A DNA stretch of 64,000 nucleotides, from contig JADGAN010000005.1 of assembly GCA_015231955.1 (NCBI GenBank), positions 62,001-126,000 on the forward strand, written 5' to 3'. The notes under the pieces are model-generated. The model made no database searches. It was not told the DNA's origin and worked only from the letters and a program-made list of their open reading frames with translations. The stretch's first letter is position 1; each line of letters starts with the position of its first letter. This document shows, piece by piece, positions 19,176 to 21,359 of this stretch. A program made the translations under genes and the position numbers. The DNA is from Oligoflexia bacterium. GTDB taxonomy: Bacteria; Bdellovibrionota; Bacteriovoracia; Bacteriovoracales; Bacteriovoracaceae.

Positions 19176-19637
19176 TTAATCAAGATCAATAGTCTCAAAA
19201 GAGTTAATCTCTTTTTCAAGTTCTATAATCTCATCTTGAAGCGCCTTGATTCTAGCATCATCAAAATGGTGTCTAACAAGATAATCTTTTTTAGAGGAGA
19301 TAACAATACGTTGCATTTTAAGTTCATTAGTATCTAGCTTAGAAAAAACTTGTTGCTGCTGCAGATCAGGGTGATAAGCAAGTGACCGATGAACTAAATT
19401 TTGACCGGCCTCCTCTAAATGTCGAAGTCGTGCAAGCAACTCTTGGTCAATTAAACTAGCAATCCGATCGTAATCTTGGCATTTTTGTTGATAACGATCT
19501 TCAAGGACGTCTATTTTTCCTTGTAGCTTTACTATTTTTTCCTGCAATTGTTTTTCAGAAAAAGCAAAAACGGAAGCGCAGAGGCCATTAACGAAAACGG
19601 TAGTGAACACGGTTAGTAGTAGTATTCGTCTGATCAT
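19176..19637 (-). CDS. Exported coiled-coil protein of unknown function
   Basis: A 153-residue protein not recognised as a known family. It starts with a signal peptide (MIRRILLLTVFTTVFVNGLCASVFA), and the remainder is almost entirely charged helix with heptad-like spacing (EKQLQEKIVKLQGKIDVLEDRY, then ALQDEIIELEKEINSFE). This suggests a periplasmic coiled coil. The ATG is in a normal position after the upstream MITE-like hairpin at 19671-19776, which therefore lies in its promoter/leader region. Confidence 0.7.
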   Translation of the reverse strand: MIRRILLLTVFTTVFVNGLCASVFAFSEKQLQEKIVKLQGKIDVLEDRYQQKCQDYDRIASLIDQELLARLRHLEEAGQNLVHRSLAYHPDLQQQQVFSKLDTNELKMQRIVISSKKDYLVRHHFDDARIKALQDEIIELEKEINSFETIDLD

Positions 19638-19662: not shown

Positions 19663-19784
19663 AAAAATTAGTAACTGCTCACACCCTTCAGCCATCTACC
19701 CTCTACCGGATGCTGAAAGTTGCTTAGCTAACAGCATTTGGTTGAGAGGTGAAGGTTGAGGGGTGTGAGCAGTTACAAAAATTA
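19663..19784. mobile_element. Miniature inverted-repeat element (IS66-type MITE candidate) with 8-bp target duplication
   Basis: The element spans 19671-19776 (106 bp). Its first 16 bases, GTAACTGCTCACACCC, are matched perfectly in inverse at 19761-19776, and the arms continue imperfectly inward for about 30 more bases to an inner ATGCTG/CAGCAT pairing. Both ends are immediately flanked by AAAAATTA (19663-19670 and 19777-19784), an apparent 8-bp target duplication. IS66-family elements are known for ends beginning GTAA and 8-bp duplications, so a non-autonomous IS66 derivative is the best guess. It carries no gene. It lies between the 3' end of tldD and the start of the exported coiled-coil gene, both on the minus strand. 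Confidence 0.72.
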
Positions 19785-19895: not shown

Positions 19896-21359
19896 TTAGG
19901 CCTGCTTATAACCGATCGAGACTTTGCTAAATTTAGAAGGAGCAGTGCCATGGCTCATCTCGGCCCGCTGTCCGGGTTGGCCCTTCCCGCAATTGGGGAC
20001 ACCCCAGAGGTGCCAGTGCTCCTCATCGGCAACACCCACCAAGCGGCCCCAAAATTCGGGAGTGATCCCTTGGTAACAAGGATCTTTGACTGGGCCTACT
20101 ATTTTTCCGTTTTGAATATGCCAACCAATCTCCATTCCAAATTGAAAGTTGTAGCGGTATTGATCAATACTCCAACATTTGATTCCATCAACCATGATGC
20201 CATCCTTGGTGTCTGCAATCAGCTCCGCCAAGGTGGCATCACCGGCGGCAAGACTCAAATTGGGCATGCGAATGATGGGAATATTTTGCCAGCCTTCAGC
20301 GCGATTGCAGCCACGCGAGCGAGTCTCCCCAATATTATGAGCAAGTTCGCGGTTGGTGAGATAAGTTTGGAAAACTCCCTCTTTGATCACATGGTAGCGC
20401 TCAGGACGAACACCGTCGTCGTCATAGCCATAGGTCGCCAGCCCCTGGGGCATAGTGGAGTCTGCAATAATATTTAAGTAGCGACTGCCGTATTGAAAGC
20501 GTCCCTTCTTTTCCAGATCAACAAAACTGCGTCCGGCGTAGTTGGCCTCAAGACCAAGCACGCGATCCAGTTCCGTTGCATGTCCAATCGATTCGTGAAT
20601 TTGTAAGGCCAGTTGCGATCCGAGGATAATCAGTTCGCGCTCTCCACTAGGGCAGGGAGGGGCGGTAAGCAGCGAAAGCGCCTCATCTCTTGTTTTGGCC
20701 GCATTCTCTTTTAATTTTAGTCCGAGGATCACTTCGTATCCGCCTTGCAGGTATTGGCCACTGCTTGCAGGAAAAGTACGCCGCTGAATCTCGTTGCCAT
20801 CACTAACACTAACACCAATCTCCGCTCCCGAGCGCACGATCTCTTGCTCGATCCGACTGCCCTCACTGCTTGCAAACCATTGGTGCTCTTTGGCGATACT
20901 GAGGTAGGCCCATGCCGATTTCACACGCGGATCATTGTTTCTTAAAATCTCCTCTGTCGAATAGAGCAGCTGCAATTTTTCGTCGTAGCTCACTTTAAAC
21001 GGGTCGATGATGTAAGGTGTGGCCCAACGGTCGATCCATATTGGTTCTGCTGCCAACTTTACTCTTTTATTGATTTTCATTGCTGAGGCGTTTGCAATTT
21101 GAATTGCCCGCCTAACTGTATTAGTAATCTCTTGCGAATGTAAATTTGCAGAGGAAGCAAATCCCCATGCACCTCCTGCAATAACCCGAATGCCATACCC
21201 AAGATTTTTGGAGTTTACAATTTCTGAGAGTAAACCATTTCTCACCTTGAGCACTTCATCACTCATCTCCACAATACGAATGTCGGCATAATCAACACCA
21301 GCTTGATTACAAATTTTCATTGCCAGATCAAGAGAGTCTAAAATATTTTGTTTTTTCAT
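19896..21359 (-). CDS. tldD: TldD-like metalloprotease subunit
   Basis: A 487-residue TldD. The active-site helix motif HESIGHATELDRV (family HExxxH) is near residue 255, followed by AGRSFVDLEKKGRFQYGS. The N-terminal VKVRNG-like segment and the C-terminal GKGQPGQ region are typical. TldD and TldE form a heterodimer whose zinc site lies in TldD, and it cleaves unfolded peptides and ribosomally made peptide precursors such as microcin B17. The partner gene is 48 nt upstream on the same strand. No precursor-peptide biosynthesis genes are seen nearby, so the pair may have a housekeeping role. Confidence 0.93.
   Translation of the reverse strand: MKKQNILDSLDLAMKICNQAGVDYADIRIVEMSDEVLKVRNGLLSEIVNSKNLGYGIRVIAGGAWGFASSANLHSQEITNTVRRAIQIANASAMKINKRVKLAAEPIWIDRWATPYIIDPFKVSYDEKLQLLYSTEEILRNNDPRVKSAWAYLSIAKEHQWFASSEGSRIEQEIVRSGAEIGVSVSDGNEIQRRTFPASSGQYLQGGYEVILGLKLKENAAKTRDEALSLLTAPPCPSGERELIILGSQLALQIHESIGHATELDRVLGLEANYAGRSFVDLEKKGRFQYGSRYLNIIADSTMPQGLATYGYDDDGVRPERYHVIKEGVFQTYLTNRELAHNIGETRSRGCNRAEGWQNIPIIRMPNLSLAAGDATLAELIADTKDGIMVDGIKCWSIDQYRYNFQFGMEIGWHIQNGKIVGPVKDPCYQGITPEFWGRLVGVADEEHWHLWGVPNCGKGQPGQRAEMSHGTAPSKFSKVSIGYKQA

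Follow-up and report, generated by a model that had tools for sequence, protein, structure and literature searches.

A MITE family with IS66-like ends in an Oligoflexia bacterium and the IS1111-group element nested in its terminal repeat

What is the 106-bp palindromic segment that lies between two exact copies of AAAAATTA in the leader of a small gene of this Oligoflexia bacterium: a mobile element, and if so of which kind, or a hairpin that serves the gene? The window (the whole stretch of 64,000 nucleotides that was analysed) contained a single copy, whose features are listed in Table 1. An earlier note, made from the letters of the window alone, had proposed a MITE with IS66-like ends, and the perfect 16-bp terminal inverted repeats (TIRs; 16/16 matches) and flanking 8-bp duplication that it described held to the base. 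It had put the imperfect continuation of the arms at ~46 bp; we found 48 nt in each arm (19668-19715 and 19732-19779), 79% complementary, with 16 nt between them. The long hairpin it expected was also predicted here: as RNA, 19663-19784 folded at -74.1 kcal/mol, whereas shuffled sequences averaged -29.1 (z -12).

Table 1 Features of the element and its neighbourhood in the window.
Feature	Position	Strand	Remarks
MITE, probable IS66-type, without own open reading frame	19671..19776	.	106 bp
Left 8-bp target duplication AAAAATTA	19663..19670	.	
Right 8-bp target duplication AAAAATTA	19777..19784	.	
Left terminal inverted repeat GTAACTGCTCACACCC	19671..19686	+	
Right terminal inverted repeat	19761..19776	-	its GTGTGAGC^AGTTAC is the insertion point of the IS1111-group element in 18 other copies
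153-aa orphan gene, apparent signal peptide, MITE in leader	19176..19637	-	
TldD/PmbA-type metallopeptidase gene, upstream of the MITE, same strand	19896..21359	-	

The genome containing the window is a draft of 5.6 Mb in 114 contigs, and its assembly breaks at these repeats. A DNA search of this genome returned at least 40 copies of 106 bp, and 33 of the 40 listed were 100% identical to the window copy; the structure in the window is therefore not a product of chance. The earlier note had asked for this search and had counted the lack of any other copy against its reading. We read every copy with two good ends and both flanks in the retrieved loci; 41 were 106 bp long, two measured 92 bp, and one 81 bp. 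An exact 8-bp duplication flanked 30 of the 41 intact 106-bp copies, one more matched at 7/8 positions, and 10 were without a good duplication. The duplications were AT-rich with no fixed motif, the flanks had a G+C content of 30% vs 42% for the window, and 35/38 sites examined were outside any ORF of at least 100 aa. The family is short and non-coding with TIRs, has a target duplication of constant length, and occurs as many near-identical dispersed copies, as MITEs do. The 33 identical copies suggest that the burst was recent. Swapped duplications, a sign of recombination between copies, appeared only as weak AT-rich coincidences, and the plasmid and phage collections searched gave no match. 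A second 106-bp subfamily, whose sequence has diverged from that of the window copy and which also had 8-bp duplications, was present at C37:304154 (L075) and C78:1570 (L065). Two MITEs in opposite orientation, ~2.6 kb apart, flanked an ATPase-like gene on contig C45 (L061, 1244-3971); they shared no common duplication and the left one had its own, so a composite transposon was rejected for this site.

These copies bear directly on the reading in which the long hairpin is no mobile element and is kept for regulation of the 153-aa gene, as an attenuator, terminator, or RNA-processing site. Its fold is very stable, and on the - strand TAATTTTTTT comes after the element, shortly before the start codon. 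However, at least 40 near-identical copies elsewhere with 8-bp duplications refute regulation as the origin of the element, and no terminator-like site was called at the locus, leaving this reading highly improbable. The placement given by the earlier note was accurate: the element is in the leader of the 153-aa gene because it falls between the tldD-type gene and the ATG at 19637 on the - strand. The predicted hairpin could possibly affect this gene, judging from its position in the leader. At E 0.001, none of 57 other genomes of the family matched the 153-aa gene, and so these genomes offered no orthologous locus lacking the element, for which the earlier note had asked. The promoter search called no sigma-70-like promoter over the MITE and one promoter-like site elsewhere, at chance level. 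With this sole site off the element and no terminator called, we dropped a promoter or terminator role for the MITE. No empty insertion site inside the retrieved loci spanned the junction cleanly.

A likely source group for the ends was present in the same genome, in which a PF03050 search found 12 stretches of IS66 transposase. The IS66 on contig C25 measured 1565 bp and had GTAACTACTCACCCCC ends, with AGGATAAC as its duplication; its single ORF encoded a 481-aa transposase (PF03050, E=4.6e-38). From this single ORF and general background on ISBst12, we take the resident IS66 to belong to the ISBst12-like subgroup (single TnpC). A second, multi-copy IS66 group had the ends GTAACTGCTCACTCCC (...ACTCCC, n=28), and six of its left/right end pairs, five from IS66-related elements and the sixth from an 81-bp MITE, had 8/8 duplications. 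Contig C17, on the 5' side of a transposase gene, paired in this way with C36, on the 3' side, by the duplication AGTTTAAG; C17/C36, C72, and C59 were remnant IS66 elements sharing MITE-like ends. The MITE matched the ends of the GTAACTGCTCACTCCC group at 37/48 and 39/48 positions (77-81% identity). In the nearest resident IS66 ends the first 16 nt were 15/16 identical to the MITE and 9-11 of 48 positions differed overall; for the similarity beyond the first 16 nt, 0/2000 shuffles were as good. The 81-bp element (G000:C81:145001-145081), a second MITE, has the same ...ACTCCC ends as the resident IS66, and its duplication is CTTAAATC.

Among 129 genomes of the class, only the genome of the window and two genomes of one other genus in the same family (G084 and G085) contained a match, and the MITE was diverged in both. 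In G085, an end GTAACAGCTCACACCC, of the MITE type with one mismatch, was fused to an IS66 transposase fragment (PF03050, E=1.5e-5), and a 99-bp MITE with the duplication GTAATTTT was about 1.9 kb from this end. The diverged copy in G084 (Oligoflexia bacterium nN3bin16, JADGAM010000046.1) was likewise a MITE of this kind. A search of genome contigs for relatives with the L079 IS66 transposase found none.

The resident IS66 ends, the paired duplications, the G085 fusion, and the relatives together make an IS66-type origin of the MITE well supported. This agrees with the earlier attribution to IS66, given GTAAC ends, exact 8-bp duplications at 30 of 41 copies, and similar IS66 elements in the same genome. 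Very probably the element is a MITE that arose from both ends of an insertion sequence of the IS66 type (single-transposase, ISBst12-like), has no coding content, and owed its movement to an IS66 transposase supplied in trans. The enzyme, which we infer to be TnpC, would recognise the GTAACTGCTCAC... ends of the MITE while acting in trans, and would cut its target with an 8-bp stagger to give the 8-bp duplication, with insertion mostly into AT-rich DNA between genes. A REP/BIME-kind intergenic repeat, moved by a transposase of the RAYT type or by another outside the IS66 family, would likewise be short, palindromic, intergenic, and high in copy number. The exact 8-bp duplications, for which to our knowledge REPs are not known, and the GTAAC ends common to the MITE and the IS66 elements of the same genome argue against such a repeat and make it highly improbable. 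REPs do resemble the MITE in being targets of IS1111-group elements (PMC11187229).

Within the IS66-type origin, the direct parent is less clear. The earlier note had called for a full IS66 copy with matching ends; similar ends (77-81%) with 8-bp duplications were found, but the draft genome, whose IS66 copies break off where contigs end, yielded no intact transposase gene that had the exact ...ACACCC end. There is about an even chance that the direct parent was another, unseen IS66-family element and that the ...ACTCCC IS66 is a cousin only. Identity between the ends of the MITE and those of the ...ACTCCC IS66 is 77-81% rather than about 100%, and a different end, GTAACTGCTCACACCCTTCAACCATCTGCCC, enters other sequence at a contig end of C78. 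Nothing decisive stands against an unseen parent, and since the draft breaks at repeats the exact parent may simply be unassembled. The C78 locus (L066, C78:20081 to the contig end) has a related end and a possible reading frame in the sequence it runs into, and this end may belong to the true parent element.

Compared with known systems, the MITE resembles the ISBst12-like subgroup of the IS66 family in its GTAAC-starting ends and 8-bp duplications, and the resident TnpC matches PF03050. The right end of ISPa75 begins GTAAC (PMC12888890), and ISPpa5a and ISPpa7 of the IS66 family have 8-bp duplications (PMC3281130). Unlike these elements, the MITE has no transposase, and its ends show 77-81% identity to those of the resident multi-copy IS66. 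It shares with bacterial MITEs in general a length of about 100 bp, TIRs, target duplications, high copy number, and intergenic sites, but is a new sequence family, seen in this genome and, in diverged form, in two of one other genus. The MITE is thus an ordinary kind of mobile element, and the record of IS1111-group nesting in it is unusually clear.

In 18 further MITE copies an IS1111-group element interrupted the sequence, each time at the single position GTGTGAGC^AGTTAC. At 18 contig ends, TAATGGAATGGACTCGCC directly followed the MITE's ...GGGTGTGAGC, always at the same base, and these were all of the left ends found for the element. At 17 contig ends ...GGCGAGTCCATATA directly preceded AGTTAC, a count conditional on a search that required AGTTAC with at most 2 mismatches. 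The nested element had 11-bp subterminal inverted repeats, ATGGACTCGCC and GGCGAGTCCAT, beyond which lay 7 bp at the left end and 3 bp at the right end. The resulting layout, TAATGGA-ATGGACTCGCC ... GGCGAGTCCAT-ATA, follows the IS1111-group rule of subterminal inverted repeats with a 7-bp left and a 3-bp right extension (PMC11187229). A C-terminal piece of its possible DEDD/IS110-type transposase matched PF02371 at 5.5e-16 in one copy (C25). The N-terminus MSKISTLGIDLAK, of which 41 aa were read, had no Pfam match, and the full gene was not assembled. For 11 of the 18 left contigs there was a right contig with the identical 8 bp beside the MITE end, where 0.4 were expected. Because these pairs share the MITE's 8-bp duplication, the MITE was in place before the IS1111-group element split its TIR. 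In the account of Partridge and Hall (2003) as cited in PMC11187229, IS4321 and IS5075 of the IS1111 group were inserted in the TIRs of Tn21-type transposons. The nested element is like these in using one position in another element's TIR, and in its 11-bp subterminal repeats and 7/3-bp extensions; it differs in that its host is an IS66-type MITE, in which all 18 left ends found were located.

Guides of IS1111 elements are in the downstream non-coding region, with the top-strand complement 5' of the bottom-strand match (PMC11187229). In the C37 copy, the non-coding region downstream of the transposase gene (396 nt) contained GTAACT at 227 and AGGGGTG 39 nt later at 266; these complement the two strands of the MITE target, top strand first and bottom strand second, as in the published IS1111 order. 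The match was equalled by 32/5000 shuffles and its thresholds were chosen after it was seen, so we treat it as a lead only. An 80-nt stretch of this region folded no better than shuffles. The MITE TIR probably serves as the RNA-guided address of the resident IS1111-group element, which would have spread via MITE amplification. This genome of a poorly studied bacterium holds a MITE family that apparently amplified recently, the IS66 group that is its likely source, and an IS1111 element that parasitises it site-specifically. The 11 contig pairs give the order of events and offer a natural setting in which to test whether a transposon end is targeted by an RNA guide.

Several IS66 copies also contained a PF05635 23S_rRNA_IVP-type four-helix-bundle gene (E about 1e-36) between the transposase gene and the outer TIR: L131 (G000:C64) at 786-1160, L081 (C72) at 968-1336, and C59:78712-78987. 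Our literature search found no IS66 with a four-helix-bundle gene and no IS66-type MITE with 8-bp duplications. The transposase-side and IVP-side ends carried the same exact 8-bp duplication in three cases, and the gene resembles a passenger gene. On C25 (L122, around 1339-1689), the right end of an IS110/IS1111 piece abutted AGTTAC within an IVP gene, apparently a MITE carrying the IS1111 element and inserted in that gene.
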